Shown piece by piece: positions 14,201 through 62,838 of a stretch of 64,000 bases of DNA. The notes below the pieces were generated by a model. The model searched no databases, had not been told where the DNA came from, and saw nothing but the letters and a program-made list of their open reading frames with translations. The position numbers were made by a program, and so were the translations under genes. The DNA is taken from contig OZ023205.1 in NCBI GenBank assembly GCA_963995525.1, forward strand, positions 41,752,379 to 41,816,378, in the 5' to 3' direction. The stretch comes from Escarpia spicata (lineage: Eukaryota; Annelida; Polychaeta; Sabellida; Siboglinidae). The stretch's first letter is position 1, and each line of letters begins with the position of its first letter.

Positions 14201-14781
14201 ACGTGTATGACGAAACACAGCTTTTATGACATAATATTGCTTGCTTTGAATTGTCGATGTACCTTTGTACTAATTCGATATGGTATACATCATTCCTCTT
14301 CTTACTACTATCTATAATTGTTTTTATGCGGACTGGACCAGCAGTTATTAATGGTTCTGCTTTTAGGCAGCTAAGAAACAGACCTCAACACTGACGTCAG
14401 TGGCATCATTCATGCTCATTCAACAAATACATCTGAAATCAGCAAGACATATTCCAGTCTATAATTCTAAGAGGGGCAGCTCAATGGTGTTTGCTAAGAT
14501 AAAATATACATTATTAAATAACTGAGGTCCCTCGGTGGCTATAAATTTATTGAATATTACATAGTGTCAAACGTTATAATATTTACGGTAAATGACAGCA
14601 CTGTAACCTTTACATTAGACTTTCTTCCAGAGGCCATAACATTCCAAAAACAAAAGTTTCAATTTATATCAATACGTGTTATATTGATGTCACGCGTCAC
14701 GTGATACTCCAGTGTCAGCCATTTTGGACGGCAAAATCAGCACGACGTGTGGATGGGGGATTCGCTGAGTGTTTATTGACG

Positions 14782-16089
14782 ATGGCGATCGCCTGCTGCG
14801 CTGTTGGGTGCCACAATAGACAAGGACAGAGTCCTAGTATATCAGTTTATCGTTTCTCCACCGATATGGAAAACGATGCCAGTGGATTGCCGCTGTTAGA
14901 CGTGAAGGATGGGAACCGACCGAGTACAGTCAAGTGTGCAGTTCTCATTTTATATATGGTGAGTTGGTGTTGGTGGTAGACTTACACTCTGTGTCTACTC
15001 TCTAGGCTAGCCACAGCCACCCGATACGTTATAATAGATTAACTATGCCATCTGAAGCCCACACACACAATGGTACACTCGGGTGTGTGAACCTTGAGAC
15101 TCCAGAACTGGCAGAAGGCCTATAATATTAGTAATAATGAGTCTATTTAACTATTGAATCGATTATCACGATTTAGCCTAGCCCTAGCAGAATCTAGCCT
15201 AGCCTGCCGTACACAGTACTATAAAGTAATTTTTCCGTCCATTTGTCTGTTTTGCAGGTGCAAAGAGCAGCCACCTTCTGTCACCTGATTTTGTCCCATC
15301 ATGCTTCGCCCACAGAGCAAAAAAACATCGTCGCAGGTCAAAGCTAGATACCTTTGAAAGCCGAGAAGCAAGTAAGAGGAAACGGGAGGAAGTGAAGCGT
15401 ACTGCTGCTGAGGGTCTGCTCAACTTTTCATCAGAAGCTGGTGACAGTCGTGACAATGCTGATGAATTAGCAACACCTCACTGTGACGCAACTGGGAACC
15501 AGGTCAACAATGTGGAAAGAGCAGCCTCTCTCGCCGATTCTATGGACACTGCATATGACAAATGTACGGGTACACAGACTCAGTTGACTGTAACTGACAT
15601 TAGTGCCATGGAGTATGAGTGCCAGAGTCTGCGTACTGAACATTATGACTTGAAAATTCAGGTTGAAGTTGGCAGTGTTTTATGAAACTTCCTGTGAAGG
15701 AAATGATGAGAAGGTGAAGACATTCAGTGGCCTGTCTAGCTTTACAGTGATGATGACATTGTTCAGTGTTGCCAGGCCTTGCCTGAAAGACAATCATACG
15801 ATCAATCGGTTTCAGTAATTCCATGGCTGACCGACTGGGCCTTCACTGTGCCATACTTCAGATTCCTGCATTCACGAGGGGGAAGAACCAGCTGAGTGCG
15901 GTTGAGAAAACTAGAAACCTGTACGGATTCATGTTGAACGTGTTATTGGCATTGCAAGACAAGTACACAATGTTACAAGGGACTGTGCCAATAACAATGT
16001 TGCAGAATGACCCAGTGTCCCGGCTGACAACCTTGGACAAGATTGTGAGAGTAGCCTGTGCAATGACCAATACCTGTGAATATGTTTAG
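14782..16089 (+). pseudogene. THAP-domain DDE_Tnp_4-type transposase, deleted and frameshifted
   Basis: Exon 1 (14782-14958) starts at ATG with CCAVGCHNR and SVYRFSTDME, a THAP zinc finger. A one-base loss in the A-run near 14872 shifts the frame; the finger resumes with WIAAVRREGWEPTEYS and CSSHF and ends at G|GTGAGT. Exon 2 starts at 15258 after TTTTGCAG in the right phase with PDFVPSCF and a basic stretch, then a linker. Another frame change near 15665 leads to a KTFSGLSSF helix-turn-helix block. The catalytic DDE core is absent. The C-terminus (15823-16089) has PAFTRGKNQLS and LTTLDKIVRVACAMTN, typical of HARBI/ISL2EU-like transposases. Confidence 0.75.
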
Positions 16090-29945: not shown

Positions 29946-30194
29946 CTAGCTAATAACGTGGATTGTTTTGGGTTGAGGAAATACACTAAACGTTTTAACA
30001 CGGCAGTTGAATTGACCCGCTCTCAACATGAGCAGAAACATTTGGGTAAGCGTTTAGTGCATCTATGTAACGTGATTATAGACGTTAAGACGTTGCACGA
30101 AGTCCCGAAGAGACATATATTCAATAAGTGTTTGTACGTGGTGAATTATTGCCCACACAACGCACAGACAACTGATGCGTGACGGCTAGCCCCA

Positions 30195-30917
30195 TTGTTA
30201 AAGCCGCATAGCCAAAGTCCAGCTCGGCTATACAGCCTCACCAGGCACAAACAACAAACAATCACGGATGGGGCAGAAATCGCCGAAAACGTGCGCGGTG
30301 TCGAGGCCGCGCAAAGACAGCTAAGCTATAGCGACGACCCTATTACGGCTAAGCTAATGGACATTTTGACAGATGAACATTTTGTCGCGAATGTCGCCGA
30401 ACAAATCGCAGATATTCTCGCCCTGAAACTGAGCGCGCGCCTTGAAAAGCTAGAGAAAGAGGCTTCTGTACTTACCAAAAAAGGGCAACCGCTGGAGGAG
30501 AAGGTGGAAATGTTGAAGACAGAGGCGGACAGACGTAAACAATACACGCGTCGTCCGAACCTCCGCACCTCCGGCATTCCAGAGACATCAGACGAAGTCA
30601 CAAATAACTGAGTTATCAACACAATAAAGAAACTGGGGTTAGAAGGCATTGGTATCAGTGACCTGGAAAGAAGTCACCGCGTAGGTAAAAAGACCGACGG
30701 ACATTGACGCCACCGAAAACGAACAATAATTATACGTTTTCGTAGTGAGACGGTGAAAGACGAAGTGTACCGCCAACGCACCAAACTGAAGCACCATCGG
30801 GACGAACACATATACATAAACGAATATTTGACGTCGAGGAGAGCAGCACTTGCTTCCAAAGCAAGATTCCTCAAGAAGGAAAAGAAAAGCAATGATTGCT
30901 GGACATATGCAGGAAGT
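30195..30917 (+). pseudogene. Non-LTR retrotransposon ORF1p remnant
   Basis: Open from 30195 to TGA at 30609-30611. A coiled coil (LSARLEKLEKEASVLTKKG) is followed by an RRM-like part with RRPNLRTSGIPE. After the stop the frame goes on with DLERSHRVGK, and after a second stop with IIIRFRS, VKDEVYRQRTKLK and IYINEYLTSRRAAL. This is the usual order of L1/Tx1-type ORF1 proteins, which bind the element RNA. Confidence 0.7.
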
Positions 30918-31017
30918 TAAAACAAACGTGGGAATAGTAAAATAAATCCTTTCTGCAAAGGACCTGGATAAATATTAGACGGATCTATGTGTATCGGCAT
31001 TATTGCTACCAAAATAC

Positions 31018-31105
31018 TTAAAGGGAAACATAAGGGAACTTTTTGGTATTAAGCACCTAAAAGAGTTAATGCAAACTAACTATTTCCAACTATAATCATA
31101 TTTTT
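31018..31105 (+). repeat. Left terminal inverted repeat of TTAA transposon copy 1
   Basis: Starts with the target TTAA (31018-31021), followed by AGGGAAACATAAGGGAAC and CACCTAAAAGAGTTAATGCA. The same sequence occurs inverted at 36905-36996 with few mismatches over about 90 bp. Confidence 0.85.
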
Positions 31106-31236
31106 AACGTCAGTGGTTTACTATAGTAAAAAATATATGAACACACCCTCTATCGAATTTCATAAATCGCGCCATTGTTGAACAGAAAATGACGTAGGCA
31201 ATGTTGCGTACTTTTCTAGATTTTGTGTGTACTAGT

Positions 31237-32618
31237 GTTTCCTAGTGTTCTGATTCTTCGTCTGATGAAATGGATTCATAAGTAGCTGCATATCGGTTTC
31301 AACCGCAAAGACAAGGGCCAGTATTGCAAGATAGACCAGAGCGTTCTGGTGACCGTAAAGCATGATAAAGAAGACGCGTGGGAAGTAGAAATGCACAGGC
31401 GACTAACAAGCCGAGACGTAACTGACTGGCGACTGGTGTCGCTGTGGAAAGTGCCAAGTTGATTGTTTGGTTCAGAAAGGAGTGTCTGCTGTCAGAAAAT
31501 GGCTACGACTCGTCAGCACGCAGAGCATGTCAGTGAAGATAATTATTTATGTGTCTAGTATAAATAACTGCTCATTATGAGGTCCGGGCTGGGTAATAAT
31601 TTAAGTAAATAAACGTATGAACTGAGTGAGTTGATAGCTCGGTGGCACCTCGATACTGGACACTCATGCCAGTGCCGTGGGCTCGGTGTCCGATTGTCCA
31701 GTTTTACATTTTATGGGAATATTACCTTCGCCCTTTTAAAAACGGTTTCAGGAACCGAGTTCCAAATTGTCCACGGCTATGATAGAAAAGAAACAGGTTA
31801 ACTGTTGTGTCCCCATTATTATATTTACTATACCGAGGCTGTATTACCAAGGTGACCATATAGCGAGGTTCCACTGTAGTAATAACAATCCCTGTTTATT
31901 TATCATTCCTGTAATACTTTCATTTAAACGCTTGGTTCTTTGTTGCAGGTGGATTACGATGCGTTACGAATGCCCAAGGAAATATACTAGTTGCTATGAA
32001 TCACATTCGGTTAGATAACTGGCAACTAGACCCGCCAACGAAAAAGTAACTATATGTTATCACAGCAGTAAAATGTGTTGTTAAATATTTATTGACATAT
32101 TTCAACAATGAAGATAATACTACAGTAACCAGAACATCAAGGGAAGCAACAGCAATTTTTAAATGTATAAACATATAATGTGTATGAAGTTTCATAAACT
32201 GTATATACTAGGCATAGTTAGTAGAAACCTGCCAACATTTTTTAATGTTTAATAGTAAACAACATAGGATCATTCTAGAACATTTTGAGAAGCATGCCTA
32301 TGTGAGAATTGAAGAAAAGTTCAAATGATTTCATGCAAACACTGCTTGTTGATATATACAAATTTGACAAGAAAACCACCTCAAACCCATTTTCATACAT
32401 AACCTGCTGACAATGTTAGTAAATTTATTTGAGCCTTATTTTATTTCAGGTCTCTCAGGTGGGCTGCATATATATAGTTCATCTGGGGGATCCATGGCAG
32501 GCTGGGCCGAAAGGTACGGAGAGTTATACCAGCGTGTTCCAGCCATCAAATACGATCACACTTCCCTGCACTCGATGGAACACAACATGAGGGATTCCAC
32601 TTGCCACTTGAGGACTGA
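31237..32618 (+). pseudogene. P2X7 C-terminal (ballast)-like domain gene, copy 1
   Basis: Three exons: 31237-31538, 31949-32045 and 32450-32618. Exon 1 has a SDSSSDE leader, AAYRFQPQ, and the zinc-type cysteine block DWCRCGKC with a later VCCQK. Exon 2 has LRCVTNAQGN. Exon 3 has HGRLGRKVRRVIPAC, IRSHFP and HEGF. This order is that of the cytosolic C-terminal domain of the P2X7 receptor; there are no channel segments, so the protein was a free domain. Exon phases fit (1, then 2). Breaks: TAA and TGA in exon 1, a donor changed from GT to AT at 31539, a short deletion in exon 2, TAG at 32475-32477. Confidence 0.75.
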
Positions 32619-33639
32619 ACTAGACTAAACTAGAGGATGCATTTGTCACCTTATACAAAACTATTGCTGTAGGTGGAAATGCAAACAAAACAGCCAGTCC
32701 CTTGAAACGTCCTTGTCAATTGTCAGTCGATTTGTAAATAAATAGTTGGATTGATTATTTATTTACAAATGCCTCTTGATGCCAGCAGATCATGTTTCAT
32801 TGGCTTGGGCACATCTGCCCCAAGGACTGCAATTCCAGTTGGGACAGTGATTCCTGGCTGTTTCAGATTTCTCACAAAGACATCATTCACTCTTTCCATT
32901 AGCATGGGCAGGTGGGTTTGCAGGTAAATCTGCTGCTGTGTTGTATTTCGCAGCACCCACTGCTTGCGCCTTCTTGACCAGACATCCGCCACGTTAACAG
33001 GGTTGTCTGCGCTAGGGCTTGGCCAAAATTACCATACCAGAGCAGACAGCATTAGCCGTGGTTTCGTCCCTATAATAAACAGGACATACAGTATTGTAAT
33101 AAAATTCTTACCAACAAAAAGCAACAAACCCATCATCATCTATATCTTGTTAGTAAGCTGCTGTGAATTACATTCCTTACGACTGGTCGGCTTTCAGTGA
33201 ACTTTGAAACGCCATTTTCCAAATGACAATATATTTAATGTATAAATATGTCTTCTATAATTGCACTCGGTAATCGTGTTTTTAAATGTTGACTGTTTGA
33301 ATCGTACTCAAAGTGGCCAAGTATTCATAATCAGACATTGAACAAATAGTATTGATCCTTACAAACAAGGCATCCCATTATGACAGTCCTCCACAATTGC
33401 ATTTATCATCACTCGTTTTTGTCATGCGTCTTATATATGGTATATACAGTGACTGTATTTTGTTATCGTTACTATTACATGGATAATTTATTACACTAAA
33501 ATAAGTTAATACAGTTGTGAAGTATTCACGCCATCTCTGTGACATAGGTAACACCTGACAGTCCTGTCCATTCAACCACCATCCTCCTCTGGGAAGTATT
33601 TAGCTCCACACAGCATATACTACGAAAATAGTATCACTC

Positions 33640-33790
33640 TCAGGTACTCATTTATATATCCGAGTGAACTGGAACAATATGGAGTGAGCAAAACTCCACA
33701 AGCTTTGAAATGACAGACTTAACAGATTCTGATGATCTAACCACTATGTTACCATGCCACAATACGTTAGTGGTGCTATTATTAGAATGA
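33640..33790 (-). mobile_element. Decayed SINE copy
   Basis: The plus strand reads CAGGTACTCATTT, then CGAGTGAACTGGAACAAT and GAGTNAGCAAAACT, followed by TGATCTAACCACTATG. These line up with the central domain and tRNA head of the SINE at 29295-29640 in the same orientation. Confidence 0.55.
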
Positions 33791-34956
33791 TTGAGGTCAA
33801 TTTGTTTACAACTAATTGCAATGTATGACTTCTGTCCTACCTTTATAGAAGAAGTGCTGTATTTTGGAGCGGTACTTGAGCAGGTAACTGTAAAATACTT
33901 CAAGTTGTCCAGTGTGGCAGTAATTTGTCAGGTGGGGGAAGAGCTTGCAGAACATGTCGTGATGTAATGGTGGAAGTAGGAGCAACCTTCTTTCGTGGAA
34001 TCTGTAACACGTGACATTGTGTTTGTGCTCTATTACGGTAAATAATTTGCTAAATTATCACATTACAGAAAAAAGATAATGAAGAATTCTTTTTCAAGCA
34101 AGAAATCATAAAGAGTTTCCATGTGAATAATGCAGTACATACCGACTTGATGTGATGTGCAGTAGACTTGCTTGATGTAGTAGGAACTGGGGACAGCGGA
34201 ATGCGAGTGGACAATGGTTGTGTAATTGTCTGCAATAGAGACAGATACTGAATAAAGATCATGTCTGGATTAATTATGGAATGTTTGTTATCATTAATAA
34301 TAATATGGTCATATAGTGGGTCATTCTATGTAAAGCTAACCAATAATTATGAAATTGGTTACACTCATCTCTTCAGTTTTTGAATAATCAATTTGGTGAT
34401 ATCCCTTGAGAAGATGAACATGAAACCAAAATAGGAGCCTCTCAGCCCAATTTTTGGGCTACAGAAATTTGACATTTAGAACTTCAATTTATAATTACGT
34501 TGAGTTTAAAAAATTAAATAAAACAATCAATATTTCAAATGTTAATATATATTGCCATATTCAAGTTTTTTTTATAATGAATAAATAAAATCATAATATC
34601 AATAATGTTACTTTTGTGTTACTTTAATTGTGGTTACTCTTTATGTAGTTTTCTGACAACCAATTAAACCATACTGCTACAATGCTGCTTGGTTGAAAGC
34701 TAAGTATCAGTTCAAGTACAAATTGTAAAACCAGTACAAAAATAATATTGTGATATTTATCACACCAATGGGAGTTTAGATTCAATAGTTTGCAAGCAGC
34801 CACTAAACCTGTCGTATGTGAAAAGGATAGTGTGTCGCAAACATACTATCAAGTCTTATTTGATTTGGAATTGAACTGATAAAACATACACATAAATTTG
34901 AATAAAAAATCAAAACAGATTGAATTGGAATTGAATGAACTGATCAAAACAAATTA

Positions 34957-35401
34957 CAGTAAACCTCGCCTAAGTTGGATTCAATCGGAGCGAGTGATTT
35001 AATTCGAGTTGCGCAAAAATCTGACTTAGCCGAAGATGACATATCCCAGCGCCAAAGGCAACCCCCTAAAAGCCATTAGGGGACTGTAAATAACGCGGTA
35101 ACTCTGTAAATGTTGATGTCCACAAGCAACATACAACAACATGCAGTATTAAAACAGTTTTATGCTTTATTTGGCACGGATCTTTAAGGTTATAGCTTAC
35201 TAAGTGATTTGTTGAATACAGCGATCCGACTTAGGCGAGGAAAAACGCATTATCTCGGATAAAATGGACCGATTTAGTTATTCCGAGTTAGGCGAAGATC
35301 CGGCTTACACAAAGATTTTTATGGGAAATTCATTACAAATCAACCTTTCCTTGGAATTCTGTCCGAGTTGAGCGAAGATCCGACTTAGGCGAGGTTTACA
35401 G
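34957..35401. mobile_element. MITE with CAGTAAACCTCGCC ends
   Basis: Begins CAGTAAACCTCGCCTAAGT and ends ACTTAGGCGAGGTTTACAG, about 445 bp, with further inverted similarity inward (GATCCGACTTAGG and GAGTTGCGC-like blocks). The CAGT...AACCTC ends recall pogo/Tigger-type mariners. It lies in an intron of the antisense gene. Confidence 0.75.
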
Positions 35402-36904
35402 CATTTACAATGATTTCTTATGTAAATTTACATTTATAAATGGTAACAGTCCCAGTACACACGAAAAGGGTTTATCACCTGACAACACCTGAATTTGCGA
35501 ATACAAAACATAACACATTTTAACGTATATATATATTGATTGAATTTCAACATCACAAAAGTGACACTTATTCACCGGCATTTAAATAAATTATAAGACA
35601 CCAAATTAAAAAAATCAAAGATTTACCTCACACACTTTATTTTAACACAAAAATACTTTTATAATATATCAAATAATAATAATATAAACAGTGTGTTACT
35701 TTTTATACCGTTACACTGTGTTCGTTACTTTCTTTCCTCTAACTATAACAAGATACCTGTGCATCTGGAGCCTACGAATGTTTGTAAAATCAAATTAAAG
35801 TTGTCAAATTGTCAATTATCACTCCAAATACACCGGTAGAATTGTCACTCACTTTTAATGAAATAAAAACATTGTCACTGTTATGTAATGGGAGCTGATT
35901 ATCCAGCATTTCCCTGCTGCTCATTGATGGGTAGTTAGTGGAACCCTTATCAATGGTGACCAGTGGTGATTTTTATAAGACAAATTTTCAACATAATATA
36001 TTTACAACAAATTCATTTAACACACAAACACATTCTGCCTTGAAATGTTATTACAAAACATTCTGATGGGGTCACAGCGACAATTCCAGACTTTTCTGCC
36101 CGGTGACGTTAATTAAAGTGCTATATTATCGCCCACACGAATTTATTGCCGTTAGCTTTTGCTAGTCGTCGGCTTTCTTCTAGTCTTCAATGTGTCATGT
36201 AGTTCTAGATTATTTCCAGCATATATATGCCTTTGTTCACGCGGTCGTGATACCAATCAAAGTAAGACCAAATAAAATAATAATAATAACCGTCAAATTC
36301 CCGGTGGAAGGCATGCATTCCTCAGAGCCAGAGCTGAGGCTAAGACTAAGTCTGTCTGGTAACCGTCTGTCTGAGGTTCAGTTCCTGCCAACACCATTCC
36401 AAAATTAGAAAGTTGACTAATTAACATATATAACATCAGATCCTGCAATATGAAATGGTACAAGAGTGTCATTTAGGTACTCAATACTCAATACTAACCT
36501 TCTTGCGATCTGACTTCACTTGGCAGCACGCTCGACGGAGAATGTGCGGCGTTTCGACGGCTGTGGTCTGTAACTAAATATCGTCGGCATTGCTCCAAGC
36601 TTCAAAACCCGACGTCGCCGACGTTTCGACGGGTCCCATTAACTGATGAAATACATCCACTTCGAAACACGTTTCTTCAAAATGAGCCGAACAGAGTGAA
36701 CTGTACAGCGTATGCCGTAACATGTGTACATGTGTTGACAACATTCCTTACGTCATGGGAACACTGTGGTAAAAATAATGCTACTCGTTTATTGGTTGCT
36801 TTTGGTCAAGCCGCCGCGTCATCAATAAGATGGCAGCCTTCGTGTTATCTGAGATTTCATTAGAATTTACCACTTTGAGATAATATTACCAGTAACCCAT
36901 TTTA

Positions 36905-36996
36905 CGTTAAACATTTGATTTTAGTTGGAAATAGTTAGTTTGCATTAACTCTTTTAGGTGCATACCACCAAACAGTTCCCTTATGTTTCCCTTTAA
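36905..36996 (-). repeat. Right terminal inverted repeat of TTAA transposon copy 1
   Basis: The reverse complement begins TTAAAGGGAAACATAAGGGA and continues with CACCTAAAAGAGTTAATGCA and CTAACTATTTCCAACT, like the left end at 31018. It joins copy 2 directly through a shared TTAA (36993-36996), forming a near-palindrome of about 180 bp. Confidence 0.85.
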
Positions 36997-37630
36997 AGGA
37001 AAACAAAAGGCAAAGTTTTGGTGTTAAGCATCAAAAAGGGTTAATACAAACTAAGAATTTCCAACTATAATCAAATTTTTAACGTCAGCGGTTTACCAGG
37101 AAAACATTTTTTAACACACAACTACCGAATATCTACGGACTGCGTCATTGTTAGAAGAAAATGACGTCACACTCGTAAATTTTCTGCGTACTATTTGTTC
37201 ACAACTCCATAAGGTGGCGCTATTGTAAGTTCACCAATTATACTATGCGTGCATGCGCTATAACTGCGTGTACTGTGTAAATAAGATGGCATGTCGTTAT
37301 GGGTTTTCCGATTCTTCTGAAGACAACAAAAACCAAATTTATTCCGACGCAGCTGGTTACCGGTTTGAATCACAAAAACAAGGGCCTATGTTGGAAGATA
37401 GGGCAGAGGCGCGTGCCTGTGGGCACGAATAGGAAGACCCACGGGCAGTGAAAATGTCGAGGCGCATATCATGATGAAATTGACTGGTGTCGGTATGGAA
37501 AATGCCGCAGCGATCTCCGTGTTCAGGAACAAGAACTGAATATGTCTGCTGCCAGGAGGCGGTTGTGACTCGACAGAACGCCGAGCCTGTTGGTGAAGGT
37601 AATTATTAATCTGTCTAGTTTATTGTTTAA

Positions 37631-38337
37631 GGTAGGTAGTATGGACTCCACCAAAAATCTTTAGTTTTCAACACAGATCACCATATTTGGTATGCAGATA
37701 CATATCAACATAGTTAAGGTTTTTTTCATGTTTCGCATAAATTATGCAAATTAGGTATCCAATATGGCCGCCATAATAGGGAAAATTAGGTATCTTTTGC
37801 CGCGCTCTAACCAAAAACGTATTCAAGTTACAAGCTTGTAATTTAGCACAGGGATTACTGTTGTGCATATCTACTGCATGAATATCACAGAAATCAGATA
37901 CGTTGTGTTGTTTACAAGAAAAATGATTTTTTTCTCGAAAAAAACTCTTTTGTGTAACTTTTTCACATAATTAACGCCTATAATAAGAAACCATTAAATA
38001 TATTATGATTTCTTTTAATTCATGCAGTAGATATACTCATTAGGCATTGCGGTGCAAAATGTTTTGCAGTTATACCCAGTATTTATTCTACTAGAGCGCA
38101 GCAACTTTAAGTACTCACAACAAAAATGGTATTCCGAGAAAACGATGATAAGGTAATTTTTATAACAAAATTCTGCCAAAAGCCATCCGAAGAAACCTCA
38201 ATATTGCCACTTTTTATTACTTTTTCAGCTAATATACTAACTGCATATTGAGCTAAGGATATGAAAGTACATAAATAGCAAAGAAAGTTCTTTTCAAAAA
38301 AAGTCAAAAATCACTTTTTGAATCCATACTACCTACC
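37631..38337. mobile_element. TTAA MITE, 707 bp
   Basis: Ends GGTAGGTAGTATGGA and its inverse TCCATACTACCTACC, flanked by TTAA at 37627-37630 and 38338-38341. No coding capacity. It sits in intron 1 of the copy 2 ballast-like gene, so it is younger than that element. Confidence 0.85.
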
Positions 38338-39453
38338 TTAAATAACCGATGAGCCTAAATTCCTGGCTGCGGTGAACAGCAAGAGATAATCGCTCGGGCC
38401 GGGACACGTCACTTGTCTTACACTTGGGTTGACTTTAGACTTAGTTAGATCTCACTCTCAGTGCCACTGGACTCAGTGTTTGAACTCTGACGTGTCCATT
38501 TTCGAATACCACCCAAGGCTGTACCCTAATTTTTTAAACGAAATGTAGTTGAATGGTTCCATGATTCATGTGGACCATAATTGTACATGGCAGAGCCAGA
38601 GGCAGAGCTATGGTAGAAAATAAACAGGAATTAACTGCCCTTTTCAGGCTTTTGTTCTATCCCCGTCGACAATCTTCACATTCGCATTAATGGCAGATAG
38701 ATAGGTTTATTATTAACTTTATTCATACTGCAATTTTTCTGCCCAAAGTTTACAATGGGTCGTATAAATAAAATATTTATTGAACTTTTTTTAGCCAGAG
38801 CCCCCTTTTGTTTTGGTGACAAAGAAAATGACCACCATTTTGTGCAAATATTGGCACATTTCGAAACGGCCTTCCTTAATCTGCTTGATATTTCTATAGA
38901 CCCAGGTATAATACTGGGATGAATACAGTTAGAGGCTCGTAATGCATTCTTTGTGAAATCTGTTCAGAATAATAATCCATGTTTGCTTAACATTCGTGTA
39001 AAACTGTTATTTAATGCTTAATTCTTTGTTACAGGTGGACTGCTGTGCATTACAAACAGCAGGGGATTTAGAATTCTTTGTTTGGAGCAGGTGGTGCTGC
39101 AGAATGTACTAGTTGCCATTAACCATATACAGTTAATGACTGGGAACTAGACCGTCCAACAAACAAGTACGTATATATGGGCATGCGTTGTTACAAGACC
39201 AGTGAAATGTGTTTTTAAATATTTATTGAAATGTATTAATAATGAACACAATACAACATCATAGTAGCGCTAGCAATACAAATATATATATAGATAATTT
39301 CGTCAGCAATCTCGTGCCTAATGCCCAAATTATTAGCAATCTTCCAGGGAAATTACTTAGTGGACTTATCATACATCATCTACCATCCACATGCTAAGCA
39401 AATTCACATCATTGAACTGACTACCATTTGAAGCTAACGTCAAGAAAGATCAT

Positions 39454-39738
39454 GTGTTCAAAACTAAAGAGTATACCACACTAATCATTGATATGAACAA
39501 TAACATAATAAAATCAAAATTAACATGTATTGAAATAGGTTGCAGAGGCTATGTATCTGAACCCAACAAATCTAAGATTGACAGCCTCCTTAAAATCTCT
39601 TGGAATAAAACCACCAACAAAACAACTAATTCTATCGTATCCTTGTCTAAACTAGCCCTGCTAATGCCATTCACCCTTTCTAAATATAAAAACGAACCAC
39701 AATGGTTTAACCCAAGATTAATTGGACCATCATCCTAA
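39454..39738 (+). other. Short open frame, transposon-like, unknown family
   Basis: A 94-codon frame with KEYTTLIIDMNN and CIEIGCRGYVSEPNKSK. The EIGCRGYV block recalls C-terminal parts of mobile-element proteins seen in many invertebrates, but I cannot assign it. It lies in intron 2 of the ballast-like gene. Confidence 0.3.
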
Positions 39739-39960
39739 TATGACAATAATTACAAAATAAAATTCCCCTCAACAGCAAATAATCCTGCACATAAATGTGT
39801 TCATTTTCAGTATGACTTACTTTAAACGTTAGTCATTATTTACCCTAGCCTGCTACAATATACTACTATACATAGCTATTTACTATATTCACATATGTAC
39901 ATGGGTTATCGTTTCACACTTTATTGTATTCTACTGAATGAACAAAGTGATACTCTCTCA

Positions 39961-40061
39961 CCACAGAACAAATGATAATGGTTCCACTTATATTATTATA
40001 TACAAGTTATCATAACTTGTATATACAATGCTTGTGGAACCATCATAATTTGTTCTGTAGT
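39961..40061. repeat. About 100-bp near-perfect palindrome
   Basis: Outer blocks CAGAACAAATGATAATGGTT and AACCATCATAATTTGTTCTG, inner blocks TATACAAGTTAT and ATAACTTGTATA, centre at 40010/40011. It would form a long hairpin; probably a tiny foldback element. Confidence 0.85.
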
Positions 40062-40430
40062 GCAAAATTATCAATATTTGCCTTATTCCAGATGAACACA
40101 TGTTTAATGGTAAACAATTTATGTAAAGGAATAGTGTCATTATAGAATAAATTTGTATATGTCACTTATTTACAATGTCAGATGTTTATTTGAGCCAAAT
40201 TTATTTCAGGTCTCTCAGGTGAGCTGCATACAGACAGTTTACGTGGTGGATCCATGGCAAGCTGGGCCGAAGGGTACGGAGAGTTCTACCAGCACGCGCC
40301 AGCCTTGAAATAAGATCAAGGTTCCCTGTCCCCGATGGGGAACAACACGAGGGATACCACTCTGAACTTGAAAACTAAACTAGACAATGTACATGTGACT
40401 CATGAAGCTGTAGGTGGGTGGTGACAGTAT

Positions 40431-40589: not shown

Positions 40590-42022
40590 GCCCAGTGACA
40601 TGAAACCCGGTGTCGCCTGCTATGAGAGCGACCCAAAACGGCATCGGAGTGACGGGTGTCGTAGGAACACTTCTTGTCGTCAATGTTATTATTAAGTACC
40701 AGAAACTCTTCCAGCAGGTGAAGTCAATCTGCATTTTAAACCAAGGTTTCATCGACGGCGTTGTGTCCGCGTTCCTTATTTTCATGAACACATATTATGT
40801 ATATTTTCCGACAAAACGCCCCGATGGCTTCAACGAAGAATCGTTTTGTAAGCTGTGGGGACTGATGATGTCATAAACGTACAACCTGGTGGGCATCTCC
40901 TTTGAGCGTTAAATGACCATAATCCATTCAATGTGGCATAAGGTGTCGTTCACGAAGACTATAGCTAATGCAATGGTTGTTTTCATCTGGGTGGTCGGCG
41001 TTCTAATCATAGATTCCTTCATAATAACAAGTGGAGTGGGTTTGTGAAAGGATGGTGCTGTGCGCACTCGCACGCCAGGAGGCGTTGCTGATTACACCAG
41101 TCTCAGTACCCCTGGCAGATCGCTTGCCGAAACTCTGAAGATAAGCTGCGCCAATAATATCGCTTCCCGAAATTTCCAGTCTGTTCTGTGTGGTCTTCGT
41201 GGACTGTTTGGGCAGTAGACGTAATTATTTGAATACACAATGCCGCTCAGTGGCTCGTGAGAATGGTCGAATGGCTAATTTTATCGGAATTCCTTGAAAC
41301 GAGTCAGACGAGTGTCTGCACTGTTCTCACGGCTGGTACGGCGAAGTCAATTACGAGTTTGATTTTGCTAACTTCCGTACAATGCGAAGGGTAGTGAACG
41401 TAGTCACGCCACTGGCTTGCAATGATGATGCTATATGACGTCTTTTTGGTCATCTCGGCGGATCGCTATAGCGGTTGGGTTGCTGCAGATATTTTCAATA
41501 TATTACTGCCTATTCTCATCCACTGCGTATGTTATGCAAAATGTCTGACTACTGCGCAAGCGCATGATCAACGTAACAAACACAGGTATTCGCGGGAACG
41601 TCACTGACACTGCCTTCCAAATGCATAATATTGTCACAGTAGTGGCAAGTACGTTGTCATATATAGATTTAAATTTCTCAACATTTGCAACATGTGGAGC
41701 GGCTGAAGTGATGTAATTCAAAGCGAAATCTACAACACTAGAACGGTTAACAGCCAAGAAAGAAATGAAAGAGCAAAGAGAAACGTCATCAAAACGTTGG
41801 CCATTGTCAACCCATGTTACTTTTTTATGTTGGACCCCAAACAAAATTTATATCACTTTGTTTACGATGGGGCGACTATCTAGACTCGGCGACGTCTACC
41901 ACACGACAGTACTTCTTGTATTCACCAACTGTTGCATCAACCCGACTATCTACATCGCCAAGTACGAGGCCTTCAAAAAGGAACTGGCGATGTTGTTTAG
42001 ACGCTCTCGACATAATGACTGA
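40590..42022 (+). pseudogene. Rhodopsin-class GPCR pseudogene
   Basis: TM1 to TM2: GVTGVVGTLLVVNVII, then SICILNQGFIDGVVSAFLIF. TM3 and loop: TYNLVGISFER, then a TAA where the Tyr of the DRY/ERY motif should be, then MTIIHSMWHK, and TM4 FIWVVGVLII. TM6 to TM7 (41814-42022): CWTPNKIYI and LVFTNCCINPTIYIAKYEAF, with a good NPxxY. Stops at about 40874 and 40907 and a scrambled middle (41040-41760) show it is broken. The ligand class cannot be read; it resembles peptide-receptor-like invertebrate orphans. Confidence 0.8.
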
Positions 42023-55243: not shown

Positions 55244-56101
55244 ACGCCTCCTCGGTCAACTCCAATTCCATCCGAGGCAGTTCTGACAACCCCCGAGCGT
55301 GGGGTGAAACGTCGACTGTCATTCGATGACGAGGCAAGTGTCATTCATGTGGGGTCATGTTCATGGTCTAGTGATCAGGATGATGATGATGTTGCTAACG
55401 ATGGTGATTTTGATACTGATTGGTCTGACGACGACGAGGGTCGGAGACGTAGTGAATTACAGGGGGCAGTAGAGAGAGTGAATGCAATTCAGAAACGAGC
55501 GGATCACATGATAGATGACGACTTATTTATAGCCGCTATATCCCCTGCATGTATTCGCCAGGTAGCCGAAGGACTGTACCTTCGCTATGCGAACGTTCAC
55601 GAAGACGTGTATGAAGTGGATCGTTCGCGTATATTTCATGCCTTTGATATGGCAGTATCCGATCTGGTGTGCGAATCGCGCGCACCGTGGTTTGCTCGTG
55701 ATGTCGTGTCACGAGTGAAAATGAGTCTCCGTAGTCGCGGTATAACCGTGTCGGATGAGACGGAAGACGAAGCACCGAAGGCGCCGCAGCCCTGGTACCT
55801 ACAAGACGACACGATGGGGGAGGAGGCGGGAAGGCAGGTATGGCGCTCAGAGATGACCCTGGTAGCACGCGATGCTATCGTTCGGTTCGTGAGCAACGAA
55901 TTGTGGCGCACTTTCGAAAGTGAGACAAATGTCATCTACCTGGTACGTAGCGATCTGATCCAAGACAATGTGAGATATGCAGTACACCATTACAGGTTAA
56001 TGGTGGACACACCGATGCGGGCACGTGAACTCATAACACGTGTGCAAGCCATCCTGCGTGTACGCGGTATACCTCTGTTGGACGAGGAAACACCCTGCTA
56101 A
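55244..56101 (+). CDS. Acidic protein with internal ~65-residue repeat, unknown
   Basis: Open from a TAG that forms part of a good acceptor (ATGTTGTAG, ending 55243) to TAA at 56101. There is no ATG near the front, so the first exon must come from upstream; the donor at 54392 fits in phase. The N-terminus is Pro/Ser-rich with KRRLSFDD, followed by an acidic Asp-rich stretch. Two similar units follow: one with VDRSRIFHAFDMAV and ARDVVSRVKMSLRSRGI, the other with VRSDLIQDNVRYAV and ARELITRVQAILRVRGI. No family recognised. Nuclear or structural role possible; not assigned. Confidence 0.55.
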   Translation, partial: TPPRSTPIPSEAVLTTPERGVKRRLSFDDEASVIHVGSCSWSSDQDDDDVANDGDFDTDWSDDDEGRRRSELQGAVERVNAIQKRADHMIDDDLFIAAISPACIRQVAEGLYLRYANVHEDVYEVDRSRIFHAFDMAVSDLVCESRAPWFARDVVSRVKMSLRSRGITVSDETEDEAPKAPQPWYLQDDTMGEEAGRQVWRSEMTLVARDAIVRFVSNELWRTFESETNVIYLVRSDLIQDNVRYAVHHYRLMVDTPMRARELITRVQAILRVRGIPLLDEETPC

Positions 56102-56124
56102 TGTTGTTGTTGTTGTGTTGTCAG

Positions 56125-56679
56125 GTCAGCGATGCTCCCTCTAGCGGACTAGATCGCATCCGAAAAGCATATGATAATGAGAAGCCGCTAGAGTGGGCAC
56201 CGAGAAAAACACGCCGCCACCACACCCCTATGCCACTGCGATAGGATCTACTCATGCACCTACACGACCAGCGTCACGTGACGGGTCTAGAGATGACATG
56301 TGAGTGTACGACACCACCACCACCATCCAACGAATCACTGGACATGAGATGTGACGACGATGAACACTATGACGTCACCACATCCGTCACCGAGTACGGG
56401 GCACTGCGGACGAATTGGTCGACGCTCGATGTGGCTGCCGATGGTCATATCGTGTGGTCGAAAACTGATACATCGATGCCGTGGGCCTACTCGGCTCCGT
56501 TCAATAGTGTGAAGCACCTCGAGCTAAACATAGAGAGTTTAGCCGGGGTGCTGTTCGCTACAAAACGATGTAGCCTAGATACGGCCGTGCGCACGATCTG
56601 CGATGAAATTGCGCGTAACGTCAAGCGCGACGAACACGTCGCCTACATTACGGAGACATTCCAGAAGCGTCTGCAGTGA
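56125..56679 (+). CDS. Unknown Polinton ORF, with upstream in-frame coding segment
   Basis: The open frame with ATG at 56254 (141 codons) ends at 56679 and contains WSTLDVAADGHIVWSKT and RCSLDTAVRTICDEIARN; no family recognised. In the same frame, separated only by TAG at 56242-56244, lies 56125-56241, which reads SDAPSSGLDRIRKAYDNEK and looks coding. It is preceded by an acceptor (TTGTGTTGTCAG, ending 56124), so it may be a terminal exon of an upstream gene or the broken start of this one. An AATAAA follows at 56796. Confidence 0.5.
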
Positions 56680-56685
56680 CGACAA

Positions 56686-56740
56686 GAGGAAATGCGCCCC
56701 TACGCTATAGCTGGGGTTATAGGCGCCGCTTGTCTGTCAC
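56686..56740 (+). repeat. Conserved 3' element, copy A
   Basis: GAGGAAATGCGCCCCTACG, then TGGGGTTATAGGCGCC and CTGTCAC. Nearly the same as 60658-60709. Both lie shortly after a gene end, and GCGCC/GGCGC can pair into a stem. Confidence 0.8.
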
Positions 56741-56795
56741 TGTAGGCGCTTAGCTTTGCTTTCTTGTATACTCACTTTTATTTTGTAATTCAATG

Positions 56796-56801
56796 AATAA
56801 A
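56796..56801 (+). promoter_or_regulatory. Polyadenylation signal
   Basis: AATAAA about 117 nt after the stop at 56679, followed by a TATG-rich stretch. Confidence 0.5.
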
Positions 56802-56948
56802 GATGTATGTATGTATGTAATCCAGGAATCCGGTGTCTGTTGTTCTTGTCACCTTCATAGCTCGTTACGATCGATGAATACATACACAACCGCCTCCCCT
56901 CTGTCTATAGATCATATACACGCACACTCATACAAGCCACGGCTCCTA

Positions 56949-56970
56949 TGACGTCACACTAGGATATATA
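56949..56970 (+). promoter_or_regulatory. CRE-like site and TATA box before polymerase
   Basis: TGACGTCA (56949-56956) followed by TATATA (56965-56970), 43 nt before the ATG at 57013. Confidence 0.6.
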
Positions 56971-57012
56971 GAAACGTACAAGGATCTCCTATCCTTCAGT
57001 TGTAGGTAGACG

Positions 57013-60000
57013 ATGAAGCAGCACAAGTGTCGTCACTGCGGTCTCGTGCTCGATACACACGCCGACATACAACGCCACATAGATCAAACGCATTCATCAT
57101 CATCAACACACGTAGACGACGACGACGACGACGACGACCATGCTTACAGTAAACCACCAAACAGTTGTGACACCTTACAAAAAAAGCGATACACTACACC
57201 GCTGCGAGAGATGTGCACGTGAGTTCACGAGACGTGACAACCTAGTACGTCATATCAAGACGGTATGTAGCCGACGAGTGGAAGCGAGCGACCCACCCCT
57301 ACGCAAACGAGCGAGACGCACAGAGCGACCACGTGTGAGTGCCGCAGCCGCCGGCGACGATGACGACCCGATACAACCACCGCCCCGACTCCCCTTCGCC
57401 GATACTCTATCGAGGGAGCTACGAGACGTCGTCCGAGATCACTGGTCGACCATCCGATCCCACGTGGCTAGAGGACCCGTGCAATCCAGGTACAATTACA
57501 GAGTGTCGACACCGGACACGAGCGCCCTAGAACCGTCACTGAAGATCATGTTCCGCGAACAGACGCACGCCTTTAAGATTAATCTTAGTTATGGTTTTGT
57601 TCTAAGGAACAAGACCACGAACAGGTACAGGTATTTTCATTCGTCTTGTAACTGCTGCGGGCGTTACCTCGACGAACCGTGTCTGATCACAAACACTGCA
57701 GACTTTGATGCGTTTCTGGAACGTATCCGAGAAACAGACGTGCTGCAGTGGGTCATCAATCAGCGTCCGGACAGTCAATGGGTATGCGAGGTGGTCACGA
57801 ATGTCACCTTCTTCGTCAATCACATCGTAGATCATCCGATAGGATGTGTGGATATCACACTACCGAGGTACATCAAACGAAACAAAGCCGTCATCGGATT
57901 GGAAAGAGACACCGATCACAACAGGAAGTACACCGACAATCTGTGTCTCTTCCGGTGTCTGGCTCTGCACCGTGGATGCGACCGACACCACCTGGAACCC
58001 GCTGTGAAGCTACTCTACGCGAAGTACAACCGTGACGGAGTGGCAATGAAAGACTTTGACGGGGTGACAATGGACGATCTCTATCGCGTCGAGACCACCT
58101 TTGATACCAACGTGTGCGTCTACAAGCTCGTCGAACCGGAAGAAGAAGGCGGAAAGGCGACTGCCGAACTCGTACGCCGGTCCTTGTGTCACTATCCCGA
58201 AACGATGTATGTCAATCTTCACGAGACACACTGTTCCTACATACAAGACGTGAACATGTACTGTCACTCTTATCGATGTAGGAAGTGTGGCGACTCGCTA
58301 TGGCGCTACGCACACAAACTAGAACGACACGAGCGCGGGTGTACGGGAGGCGTGCGAAAGATCTATCCCGGTGGTGTCTACCGTCCGTCGCCGACAGTCT
58401 TCCAGTGCTTGGACGACGAAAACATTCACGTTACCGAGTGTTTGCGCTACTATCCGTATCGCGCCACCTTCGACTTCGAGTCCTGGTTCGATACGTCACA
58501 GCTTCCGTCGGACAGCGCCAAAGTCCACTGGGTGGCTCGTCACGTACCGTTGAGCGTGTCCCTGGCGAGTAACGTACCCGGATTCGAACAGGTACAATGT
58601 CTGATCACGGATGGTGACAGCAACAAGTTGGTAGCCGACATGATGGGTATCCTTCAGACGATGAGCGAAGCAGCCTACGACGCCATCGTAGACAGTTACG
58701 AGGGCACACTACACGAAATCGGGGAGGCTATCACGACGTGGGACGAACAGGAGGCATCCGCCGCAGAATGAGACGACAACGAGTCACGGCGAAAACCGAC
58801 CAATCCCTACAAAACTCTCATGGGTCAACTGTACAGTTGGCTTCATCAGTTGCCCGTCATCGGCTTCAACTCGAGCAGGTACGATCTGAATGTCGTCAAA
58901 CAGTTCCTGGTACCCTACTTCCTATCCGAAAAGAAAGCAACAGAGGACGGGGAGGGGAGGAGGGGGCGTTTCACGTGATCAAATGCGGTAACACGTTTAT
59001 ATGTCTATCGACGGACGACCTCAAATTCCTCGATATGACTCATTATATCGCCCCGGGATTCTCGTACGACAAGTACCTGAAAGCGTACGGTTGCGAGGTC
59101 ACGAAAGTTCACTTCCCGTACGAATACATGGACAGCTTGGAGAGACTCGACGACACCGCTCTACCTCCCAAAGAGGCCTTCTTCAGTCGACTGAAGAACG
59201 AAGGTATATCCGACGACGACTACACGCGATGTCGGAAGGTGTGGCGAGACAACGACATGGAGATTCTGCGAGACTTTCTCGTCTGGTATAACAACAGGGA
59301 CGTCGTGCCGTTCTTAGAGGCCATCGCCAAACAGTTCGACTTCTACCGACACCGCGGTATCGACATGTTCAAACAAGGGATCAGTATACCTGGTTTGACC
59401 TTGTCCTATCTGTTTACCAACGTGCCGGAGAGGACGTTCTTTACGCTCTTCAACGAGACGAACAAGGACGTCCACCAGCTCGTCAGAGAGAACATCGTCG
59501 GAGGACCGTCACTCATCTTCACCAGACACCACGAGAAGGGGGTCACGAAGATACGTCGTAACGACTACGGTGATGCGGCTCGAACGTGTCAGTCCATCGT
59601 TGGCTATGATGCGAATGCATTGTATCTGTGGTCGATATCGCAAGAGATGCCAACTGGATGGTACACGCGACGACGGGAAGAGAAGGAGTTCCGACCCGAA
59701 GCGGCACAGCCCACAGGTCAGATGGCTGCCGAATGGCTGACGTGGGAGTCCGAAAGCACGGGACTCACCATACGTCACCAGACCAACGGTCGAGAGAAGA
59801 GCATCGGTAAACTGTCGGTGGACGGTTGGTGCAGCGAAACGAAGACGGCCTATCAATTTCACGGGTGCTACTATCACGGTTGTCCGTGTACCGGTCGTGA
59901 GGTCAACGAGGTCAACGGGAAACAAATGACGCAACTGCTCGCCGAAACGCGAAAGAACACGGCCTATCTTCGACACCGACTATTACGCTCTGCCTACGCA

Positions 60001-60634
60001 CGTGGGATTCTTCGTGTTGCAGTGGGCCAAACTGCACATGTTGGAGTTCTACTACGACTTTATGATCAGGTACGTGGATCGTCCGCTGTTCTAGTACTGC
60101 GAAACCGATACGGATAGCGCCTATTTGGCTCTAGCCGGAGAGTCCGTCGACGACCTCGTGACCCCGGCACTACGTGACCACTACTATCGTCACCGCTCCG
60201 AATGGCTACCGTCCGAATGTTGCGACGATCATCGGAACGACTACATACGCTGTCGACTAGCCGGACGTCCGTGGAACGGCACCGAGACGTGTTGCAAGGC
60301 GCGCAAAGCGTACGACAAGAGAACACCGGGACTCTTCAAGGTCGAATGGTCCGGCGACAGTTTCCTGGGACTGTGCAGTAAGACCTACTATTGTTCGGGT
60401 ACGGTCGATAAATACACCACCAAAGGACTGAACAAACGACTCAACGCCATCGACTAGCAGGCGTTAATGGACGTGCTGACCAGTCGTCGTAGTGGAAGCG
60501 GAGTGAACCGTGGGTTCCGGGTCAATCACTCGTCCGTGCTGACGTACACCCAGGAACGCGCGGCGTTGACCTACTTCTATGCCAAGCGCGTGGTCAACGA
60601 GGACGGAATCACCACGGGTCCGGTGGACGTGTAA
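57013..60634 (+). pseudogene. polB: Protein-primed family B DNA polymerase, multiply broken
   Basis: N-terminal C2H2 fingers (CRHCGLVLDTHADIQRH; CERCAREFTRRDNLVRH) are split by a frame change at an A7 run (about 57178). Exo I is FDFESWF (58472), Exo II GFNSSRYDL (about 58865), Exo III YNNRD (about 59287). Motif A is YDANALYLWS (59605) and motif C DTDS (60107-60118). Breaks: TGA 58769, frame change near 58955, a deletion near 59970 that removes the motif B region, TAG 60092, TAG 60455. The tail has GLCSKTYYC and KGLNKRL. The enzyme would replicate the linear element from a protein primer; this copy cannot. Confidence 0.9.
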
Positions 60635-60657
60635 CACCGAACCACTGCTGACACGAT

Positions 60658-60709
60658 GAGGAAATGCGCCCCTACGTCAGTTGGGGTTATAGGCGCCTCT
60701 AGCTGTCAC
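60658..60709 (+). repeat. Conserved 3' element, copy B
   Basis: GAGGAAATGCGCCCCTACG, then TTGGGGTTATAGGCGCC and CTGTCAC, 24 nt after the polymerase frame ends. Matches 56686-56740. Confidence 0.8.
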
Positions 60710-60788
60710 GCGGTTAGTAGGTGGGAGACACACGAAAAAAATAACACTATTTAGTCAGATACCACGCAATCGATAGTCATAGCGCAGC

Positions 60789-60971
60789 ATGTCACGGACG
60801 GGAACGGTCGTAGCTGTAGCACTAGTGGGAATACTCGGTCTGTACCTGTACGTCTTGTACGTCTTGTTCCGCGATCCCTTCCTTCGTTGGTGTGGCGGAG
60901 GTGTCGTCGTCGTCGTATCTAACAGCACAGCGGACAACGTAACATTGTCGAACGGCACCAGCGACTACTAG
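60789..60971 (+). CDS. Small single-pass membrane ORF
   Basis: 60 residues with one membrane segment (VVAVALVGILGLYLYVLYVL), a short basic turn and a Ser/Thr/Asn-rich tail with two NxS/T sequons. Its TAG directly abuts the ATPase ATG (TAGATG), a compact arrangement expected for a viral-type operon-like layout. Function unknown; a small virion or membrane protein is possible. Confidence 0.5.
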   Translation: MSRTGTVVAVALVGILGLYLYVLYVLFRDPFLRWCGGGVVVVVSNSTADNVTLSNGTSDY

Positions 60972-61589
60972 ATGGACACGCGATGGAAACACCCCTTCAC
61001 CTGTATCGTCGCGGGTCCGATGGGATGCGGTAAGAGCACATTCGTGCTGCGTCTGCTACGTCACGCCGCGACGATTATCGATCCGCCTCCAGAGAAGATC
61101 ACGTGGTGTTACGGTGTATGGCAGAGTGCCTACGTCGACAACGACCAGGTACGCTTCGAGGAAGGCTTGCCGAGCGGTGCGTTCGATGCATCGACGCGTA
61201 ACCTCGTGGTCATCGACGATCTGATGGCGGAAACGGACGAACGGGTCACGACCTTGTTCACGAAAAAGAGTCATCACCAGAACACGTCCGTACTGTATCT
61301 CGTGCAGAACCTGTTTCCGAAGAACAAGGAGAGTCGCACGATCAGTCTGAACGCACACTACATGGTAGTCTTCAAGAATCCTCGCGACGCGTCACAGATC
61401 GGACACTTGGCGCGACAGATGTATCCGGGACGCCTGATGTTTGTACAGGAAGCGTACCGAGACGCCACGGCACCTCCGTACGGTTATCTCCTCGTTGATC
61501 TGAAACAGGACACGCCCGACGACATGCGTCTGCGCACGGGCGTCCTTCCGGATGACGGTGTCCAGTACGTGTACCAACCCAAAGTATAA
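60972..61589 (+). CDS. Genome-packaging ATPase (FtsK/HerA, A32-like)
   Basis: 205 residues, intact. Walker A is GPMGCGKST (residues 15-23), Walker B LVVIDD (78-83), followed by a conserved SHHQNTSVLYLVQNLF (about 96-111) and LNAHYMVVFKNPRD. Length and motifs are those of Polinton and adintovirus packaging ATPases, which push DNA into the capsid. It starts right behind the membrane ORF. It is the best-preserved core gene in the element. Confidence 0.9.
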   Translation: MDTRWKHPFTCIVAGPMGCGKSTFVLRLLRHAATIIDPPPEKITWCYGVWQSAYVDNDQVRFEEGLPSGAFDASTRNLVVIDDLMAETDERVTTLFTKKSHHQNTSVLYLVQNLFPKNKESRTISLNAHYMVVFKNPRDASQIGHLARQMYPGRLMFVQEAYRDATAPPYGYLLVDLKQDTPDDMRLRTGVLPDDGVQYVYQPKV

Positions 61590-61646
61590 GACGTCCGCGC
61601 GCACGCCTCGTCCCTTCAGTCGCAGTATGGTCGTGAAGACAACAGC

Positions 61647-62170
61647 ATGTCCGAACTCGTGAAGAAACACCTCTTCTGCATACAGACGCTGAACAGGTAC
61701 AAGAGCACGAAATTGAGACGAGCCATCATCAGAAACGCCGACGCCGATCTGTTGTGTGCACTAGCCGAGTGTGCCTACAACATATTGAAGAAGAACGTGC
61801 CCTTGACCAAAGACGCGCTCTGAGTGTGTACAAAACAAACCTGCGCGCTTTGGCAAAGAAAGACGCGCCGGCAGCGAGGAGACGTCGCATCTTGCTACGC
61901 GGTAACAACCAGGGCGGCGGGGGACAGACCGGTGGTTTCCTGTCGGCGCTGCTGGCACCTTTGGCCGGTGCGTCTTTTTCTACCCTTGTTAAAACAGGTG
62001 CTACTCAAGTAGACGACGATGGAACACACACGGAAGATGGCTTTGGTAGATCCACGACTGTTGGATATTCTACGCGCACCGGCACCGACGGATACCCTAG
62101 GACGCAAAGTACAGGTGCTCGACGACGAGATGAAAGTCATACTCGACAGACAAGATATCGCCGACGGTGA
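61647..62170 (+). pseudogene. Small basic virion-core-like protein, frameshifted
   Basis: The 5' frame (61647-61823) begins SELVKKHLFCIQTLNRYK and ends at TGA. The continuing basic part, VYKTNLRALAKKDAP, and a Gly-rich then hydrophobic tail, GGFLSALLAPLAGASF, lie in another frame (open 61754-62170). The order matches small basic proteins located next to the ATPase in Polintons and adintoviruses, probably in the virion core. The homologous part likely ends near 62000, where the next gene starts. A single-base indel near 61810 explains the break. Confidence 0.65.
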
Positions 62171-62293
62171 CAAGGTCGTCATGTATAATCAAGTGTTGCA
62201 ACGCCACAACGCGTTGGCCGATCGACGCGTGCGCGAACCAGTGCGCGTGATGACGGTCAACAAGGACACGTCCCCGATGGTCACAGCGGCGGG

Positions 62294-62325
<32 letters not shown>

Positions 62326-62792
62326 GGGTGACAGGTATGGAAGCGGCGGTGTCGGCAGGTATGGAAGCGGACGTCGTCGACAGCGTTCCCAAGGCACTGC
62401 GGACCAAAGCTAGACTACTGATGTAACGTCTGAAACGAGACGTCGTGTGGAATGCACGCGGAGAGCTCAAGCACAAAGGCGTAGCGGTACCCGGAAGTAA
62501 CGTGGTGGACCTCGTGAACGATCTGTTGCGTCAGCGCAAGACCGTTGGCAGTCCGACGGGGTGGCTGGTGTTTACGCGTCAACTCGGCACCATGAATCTA
62601 CCCATGGAGTTGGTGGGTAACGAGGTCAGGAGACTGGCCATTCAACAGGAACAAAGGAGGAGTGCCGTAGCGGCAGCGGCCACACGGTCGCTCGGTAGAG
62701 CGCGTCGATCGCTGCAGTGGACACCCCTCACGCGGAGACGAATGAGCCCGTCCACTCTACCTACGCCACCGGCCTCGACTAGTAAGGGATAG
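62019..62792 (+). pseudogene. Conserved Polinton protein with in-frame stop
   Basis: One frame from ATG 62019 (MALVDPRLLDIL) to 62792, interrupted only by TAA at 62424-62426. The middle has an Ala run from GCG repeats (about 62288-62326). After the stop come VVWNARGEL, NVVDLVNDLLRQRK and GWLVFTRQLGTMNLP, blocks I associate with a conserved protein found in many Polintons and adintoviruses, function not settled (a virion component is likely). The C-terminus is basic and Ser/Thr-rich. Confidence 0.65.
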
Positions 62793-62838
62793 GAGGATCT
62801 CAGATAAAGGAGGCGCACCGTCTCGATTCGTCGACATA

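Follow-up and report, generated by a model that had tools for sequence, protein, structure and literature searches.

A TTAA-flanked transposon in the Escarpia spicata genome, very probably a decayed Kolobok, with relics of a P2X7 ballast-domain gene and of a transposase gene

The 64,000-nucleotide stretch of the Escarpia spicata genome analysed here (contig OZ023205.1, positions 41,752,379 to 41,816,378 of the forward strand; hereafter the window) contains a DNA transposon, element 1, with relics of two convergent genes. The plus-strand relics correspond to KolX, the second protein of Kolobok transposons of the Kol0 lineage, which has the fold of the ballast domain of the ion channel P2X7 (Kojima and Bao 2022, PMC9587614). 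The minus-strand relics correspond to a transposase. The element has TTAA on both sides, termini of the form AG...CT and long inverted ends, and its copies elsewhere in the genome are independent insertions. Its features, in order of position, are as follows.

31018..31021, no strand: left TTAA target-site duplication (read from the sequence)
31022..36992, plus strand: element 1, very probably a non-autonomous Kolobok-type DNA transposon, 5,971 bp (inverted ends, TTAA, 8 sister copies with both ends)
31022..31110, plus strand: left terminal inverted repeat (inverted-repeat scan)
31237..31570, approximate, plus strand: KolX exon 1 relic, with WCRCGKC and VCCQK in different frames (block reading, alignment to copies)
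31949..32045, from splice-like sites, plus strand: KolX exon 2 relic (no Pfam match of its own; its counterpart in element 2, described below, matches P2RX7_C at E = 0.2)
32450..32618, bounds inferred, plus strand: KolX exon 3 relic, RRVIPAC to IRSHFP (P2RX7_C on 32478-32615)
32762..33069, minus strand: putative C-terminal relic of the transposase, assigned by eye (sole profile support E = 0.48, in sister copy L012)
33841..34001, bounds inferred, minus strand: transposase exon relic with the catalytic-glutamate block HTGQLE (transposase profile)
36480..36760, minus strand: THAP exon of the transposase gene, decayed (alignable with 9 of 12 compared copies)
36904..36992, minus strand: right terminal inverted repeat (inverted-repeat scan)
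36993..36996, no strand: right TTAA of element 1, common to element 2 (read from the sequence)

An inverted-repeat scan of 8 kb paired positions 31018-31110 with 36904-36996, giving arms of 93 nt (counting the TTAA) that are 92% complementary. The next-longest inverted pair in the same 8 kb that was independent of the end sequences of element 1 measured 29 nt. The ~90-bp terminal inverted repeats with TTAA on both sides that a first-pass annotation of the window had described are therefore real. With TTAA at 31018-31021 and again at 36993-36996, the element proper runs from 31022 to 36992, beginning with AGGGAAAC and ending with GTTTCCCT. Kolobok transposons are marked by TTAA duplications and 5'-RR...YY-3' termini (PMC9587614), and the AG...CT termini of the window element fit this pattern, as do those of all eight copies in which both ends were found.

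These copies came from a search of the host genome (1.06 Gb in 1,097 contigs) with an 88-base query consisting of the left end and its TTAA. The search yielded 1,048 candidates, 40 of them scored matches. Twenty of the 40 places were fetched, at 9,991 bases each. Both ends were present in eight of these stretches (L009, L010, L011, L012, L014, L016, L019 and L023), and the remaining 12 showed a single end or a second end in direct orientation. The two-ended copies were 5.6-9.8 kb long and 85.8-90.1% identical to the window copy. Each of them, like the window copy, lies within a 4-bp TTAA target-site duplication, and the 10-bp outer flanks all differ. The query contained the TTAA, and finding it at the matched ends is therefore to some extent a product of the search; the differing flanks are not.

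The gene content was compared at 12 loci, namely the eight two-ended copies together with L013, L015, L018 and L022. All eight two-ended copies matched KolX exons 1-3 as well as the glutamate and THAP exons, some of the matches being split or partial (for instance in L010, L011 and L019). The end-sequence search that the first-pass annotation had proposed thus recovered TTAA-flanked copies that all match the three ballast exons. The annotation had also named the finding that would speak against it, full-length copies with the same ends and no gene. No such case occurred among the eight two-ended copies; some incomplete copies are without the whole gene, and L020, L021 and L024-L028 contain at most a piece of KolX exon 1. 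It remained conceivable that the inverted ends and gene blocks of the window arose by chance or by faulty assembly, a reading that gains something from the degenerate state of the gene and from the reading of its blocks by eye. We regard it as extremely improbable, since nine insertions (the window's and the eight others), with differing flanks, have the same ends, order and content.

A second route led from the ballast domain to the ends. A search of the host genome with the Pfam family P2RX7_C (PF20478) returned 1,007 candidates, of which 150 were scored matches, the best at E = 5.6e-32. For 11 of the 40 ends an equally oriented ballast match lay no more than 5 kb inward, compared to ~0.03 expected by chance (an expectation calculated for all 150 matches). 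This excludes the case that ballast genes are never bounded by these ends. The overlap drew on all 40 ends and on 45 of the 150 P2RX7_C matches, the lower-scoring ones; about 100 higher-scoring matches, mostly of other families, and a few low ones were left out of it. The figure of 11 of 40 is therefore a lower bound.

Four of the incomplete loci (L024, L025, L026 and L028, on contig C2 at about 47-74 Mb) are large repeats with long blocks that are 92.6-98.7% alike. They have in common the flank ACCGTG, the left end and a piece of KolX exon 1; a second end, in direct orientation, follows after ~8.1-8.7 kb. Contig C2 holds 14 of the 40 listed end matches, and these observations suggest amplification on one chromosome.

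The relics on the minus strand were examined with a transposase profile. Kolobok transposases usually combine a THAP domain (C2CH, PWF and an AVPTIF box), a DDE domain and an H2CH finger (PMC6004289). The profile was built from 27 of 120 listed relatives found with the exons of a young family described below, a query that gave 279 proteins at E <= 0.01 among 4,443 candidates. The listed relatives are animal 'uncharacterized proteins' from molluscs, fishes, echinoderms, amphioxus, cnidarians and others, some of them with PF20700 (Mutator-like transposase). The highest-identity matches among them were partial ones, in Ridgeia piscesae with 71% identity over 44% of the query and in Lamellibrachia satsuma with 75% over 27%; by themselves they would point to a siboglinid tubeworm as the probable host. 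Against the 2,073 open frames of the window, the profile produced one match, at 34054-33815 on the minus strand, in which the HTGQLE relic aligns with the profile's invariant glutamate block. The same exon scored in the sister copies L012 (E = 3.3e-8), L016 (2.3e-8), L010 (1.2e-7), L009 (2.2e-6) and L023 (0.0014), and it was absent from the protein query by which the relatives were found. The profile detected the two catalytic-aspartate blocks neither in the window nor in the five sister copies searched. At the other end of the gene, the L012 counterpart of the THAP exon matched Pfam THAP at E = 2e-18 and was followed by an AVPTIF box, of which AMPTIF is readable in the window's decayed exon. 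The long inserts of L014 and L019 were considered as a possible missing transposase core and rejected, because by eye their long frames look like portions of non-LTR retrotransposons.

These features bear on the alternative that element 1 is a TTAA element of the piggyBac type that gained a ballast-like gene. TTAA flanks are part of that alternative as well. RR...YY termini separate Kolobok from piggyBac (PMC9587614), however, and the termini here are AG...CT. Moreover, a THAP exon is present in a sister copy, a transposase exon matches the Kolobok-like profile, and the piggyBac proteins treated in PMC9587614 are without most of the seven conserved cysteines. The Pfam scans of selected element pieces, which covered part of the frames of elements missing their catalytic core and included no piggyBac profile run as such, returned no piggyBac family. 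A piggyBac origin is accordingly very unlikely.

The first-pass annotation had read the blocks WCRCGKC, VCCQK, RRVIPAC and IRSHFP as a spliced ballast-like gene. All four blocks are present on the plus strand of element 1, the first two in the relic of exon 1 and the last two in that of exon 3, with splice sites inferred by eye from the DNA alone, but they do not make up one intact gene. WCRCGKC and VCCQK are separated by 29 nt and therefore cannot be read in one frame. The same 29-nt distance was found in 7 of 17 aligned genomic regions (L011, L012, L013, L016, L018, L022 and L023); among the other 10, the spacing in L014 was shorter and the pattern search gave no value in nine. Wherever the spacing was measured, in the window and in seven copies, the ballast gene is out of frame.

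A related sequence directly to the right of element 1, element 2, gave a clearer match to the domain. Its features are:

36997..40385, plus strand: element 2, truncated relative of element 1, the right limit being the last similarity to element 1 (blastn blocks, end repeat)
about 37286-37606, 39035-39147 and 40210-40378, bounds inferred, plus strand: KolX exon relics of element 2 (blastn blocks, P2RX7_C)

The left end of element 2 starts immediately after the right TTAA, its end repeat is 87% alike over 104 nt, and its gene blocks follow the order of element 1 up to 40385. The distance between WCRCGKC and VCCQK is 38 nt in this copy. No right end of element 2 was found within the window. The two elements stand head-to-tail with one TTAA in common, and the simple explanation would be that one inserted into the target duplication of the other. 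Element 2, the common right TTAA and the minus-strand transposase relics are additions to the first-pass annotation.

Ten pieces of elements 1 and 2 were run against Pfam, and four matched P2RX7_C. Exon 3 of element 1 reached E = 0.003 and 18 bits and exon 3 of element 2 reached 0.00053 and 20.4 bits, both under the curated cut-off of 23.5 bits. When the reading of element 2 was joined across its frame breaks, each marked by X, the match rose to 1.9e-5 and 25.1 bits, over the cut-off. The Pfam assignment is thus above the cut-off for element 2 only, with element 1 itself below. Against solved structures the joined reading gave P2X7 at E = 0.34 next to an unrelated chain at 0.36, and a protein search with it yielded none of 16 candidates at E <= 1.

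Better-preserved ballast genes are found in the same genome behind other TTAA boundaries. One young family (L031, L032 and L033) starts with TTAA-AGGTGCACAATC in three different flanks. With L034-L036 as extensions, its three copies show 97.6-99.5% identity over ~12.4 kb. Its P2RX7_C exons scored 3.8e-7 and 6.8e-18. Ten minus-strand transposase blocks, including GDGRNDSPGH and TDAH, follow in order over profile positions 70-607 and cover the catalytic D, D and E. Six of the ten blocks were in the query with which the relatives were found, and therefore those scores are partly by construction; four were not. Judged from these exons, the young family appears to retain most of a Kolobok-like transposase.

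A third kind of boundary is common to L029 and L030, which both begin at TTAA-AGGGGCAC(A/T)GTATAGATTGCGC (TTAA-AGGGG) in differing flanks. Both have single-frame ballast genes, of 183 aa in L029 and 178 aa in L030, and the L029 protein matched P2RX7_C at 8e-35 and solved P2X7 at E down to 6.9e-22. A candidate right end was seen in L029 only, with 12 of 16 terminal bases. In an inverted-repeat scan, none of the 25 longest pairs listed per locus amounted to long terminal arms, and neither locus gave a convincing match to the transposase profile. Their transposon nature rests on the common left boundary at TTAA-AGGGG, and they may form a Kolobok family of their own or be domesticated copies.

Three kinds of TTAA-AGG left end, distinct by eye, therefore precede the ballast domain in this genome, which favours ancestral possession of the gene over one capture. 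This bears on the view of the first-pass annotation that an unrelated transposon picked up a host ballast-domain gene as its passenger. The joint occurrence of gene and ends in all eight two-ended copies agrees with such a view. The two further kinds of left end, unlike the window's by eye, argue against it, and so does the literature, in which KolX is the regular second protein of Kol0-lineage elements (PMC9587614). A gene possessed from the start is a more likely history than several separate captures, and we give cargo capture very little probability. The passenger role is the part of the first-pass annotation that fell: by prior work KolX is native to the Kol0 lineage of Kolobok, and the copy in the window is broken. 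What stood is that a TTAA transposon carries a P2X7-ballast-like gene and that copies of the element repeat this gene. A gene that repeats with its element also accounts for the multicopy state of the free domain and for its possible capture by an ion-channel gene, as had been proposed.

We consider it very likely that element 1 is a decayed, non-autonomous TTAA transposon of the Kolobok superfamily, of Kol0-like type, carrying relics of KolX and of a transposase. It is read as non-autonomous because no aspartate blocks were detected and the ballast gene is out of frame. Several points weigh against this assignment. The comparison was with the profile of uncharacterized animal proteins, and the transposase signal within the window is weak (E = 0.001). 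The window's own THAP pieces had no Pfam match, Pfam returned nothing useful for the window's transposase pieces, and a protein search with the joined transposase relic gave none of 158 candidates at E <= 1. Among five transposase relatives scanned, PF20700 was above the cut-off in two and below it in three. The young family's transposase exons, single or joined, matched no Pfam family, and that family is known from its left end inward, its right end lying beyond the sequence covered.

The resemblance to known systems is close in several respects. The Kol0 lineage, represented by Kolobok-1_XT, is alike in TTAA, in RR...YY termini and in having a KolX gene together with a DDE transposase gene (PMC9587614). 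The window's lineage, a candidate member, differs in its frame-broken KolX and in having no detectable aspartate region. Xenopus T2-MITE and XKol are alike in the TTAA target, in the AGGRR terminal motif (here AGGGA) and in a THAP domain with AVPTIF (PMC6004289); the terms 'KolX' and 'P2X' have no occurrence in the main text of that paper.

An intact relative of element 1 would have two convergent genes, with KolX and its P2X7-ballast zinc domain encoded on the plus strand and a DDE transposase encoded on the minus strand. The window's own family has kept the THAP exon at the start of the transposase gene. The common broken KolX frame of the copies and their undetected aspartate region indicate that relatives probably mobilized them in trans. 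In this scheme a transposase supplied by autonomous relatives would bind the element ends with its THAP domain and move the element into TTAA with its DDE core. Our best guess for KolX is that it may serve as an accessory of the transposition complex that binds zinc and perhaps nucleotides. We see about an even chance that KolX is a trans-acting transposition protein, dispensable in the element that is moved, and that several Kolobok branches are still expanding in this genome. The basis for this is the many copies with broken KolX compared to a near-identical young family with open exons of both genes, and the third TTAA-AGGG kind, which keeps a single-frame ballast gene.

Other features of the window lie outside the two elements. 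Just before element 1, frames at 30183-30974 resemble by eye the first ORF of an L1-type retrotransposon; the frame at 30183-30608 gave nothing convincing in Pfam. To the right of element 2, frames at 40604-42022 look by eye like a broken rhodopsin-type receptor gene. The region 14596-16086 is a possible relic of another DDE transposon. DDE_Tnp_4 matches 15787-16086 below cut-off (E = 0.00068), and a frame at 14596 resembles a THAP domain by eye but had no Pfam match. A run of long plus-strand open frames at 55244-63856 resembles a Maverick/Polinton. In it Pfam matches an A32-like ATPase at 60972-61586, below cut-off, and further on, at 62840-63853, a Chromo domain (6.6e-8).

Kojima and Bao (PMC9587614) report KolX as clearly similar to residues 476-595 of human P2X7, and P2X7 as the product of a fusion between a P2X4-like gene and KolX. 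Annelids are among the hosts of Kol0 and KolX, and earlier work on the free-standing domain had, according to the same paper, not noted its membership in Kolobok families. A 2020 paper on the P2X7 ballast and free-standing genes for the zinc-coordinating cysteine domain (PMC7016195) concerns the same Pfam family, P2RX7_C; 'transpos' does not occur in its main text, whereas here the domain lies inside a transposon. With the account of Kojima and Bao (2022), the central claim of the first-pass annotation was therefore already in print. The present analysis confirms the published link between the P2X7 ballast and a transposon protein independently, from raw sequence, and leaves the known picture unchanged. 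The young, near-identical KolX-bearing copies in the host genome offer a setting in which the part played by KolX in transposition could be tested.

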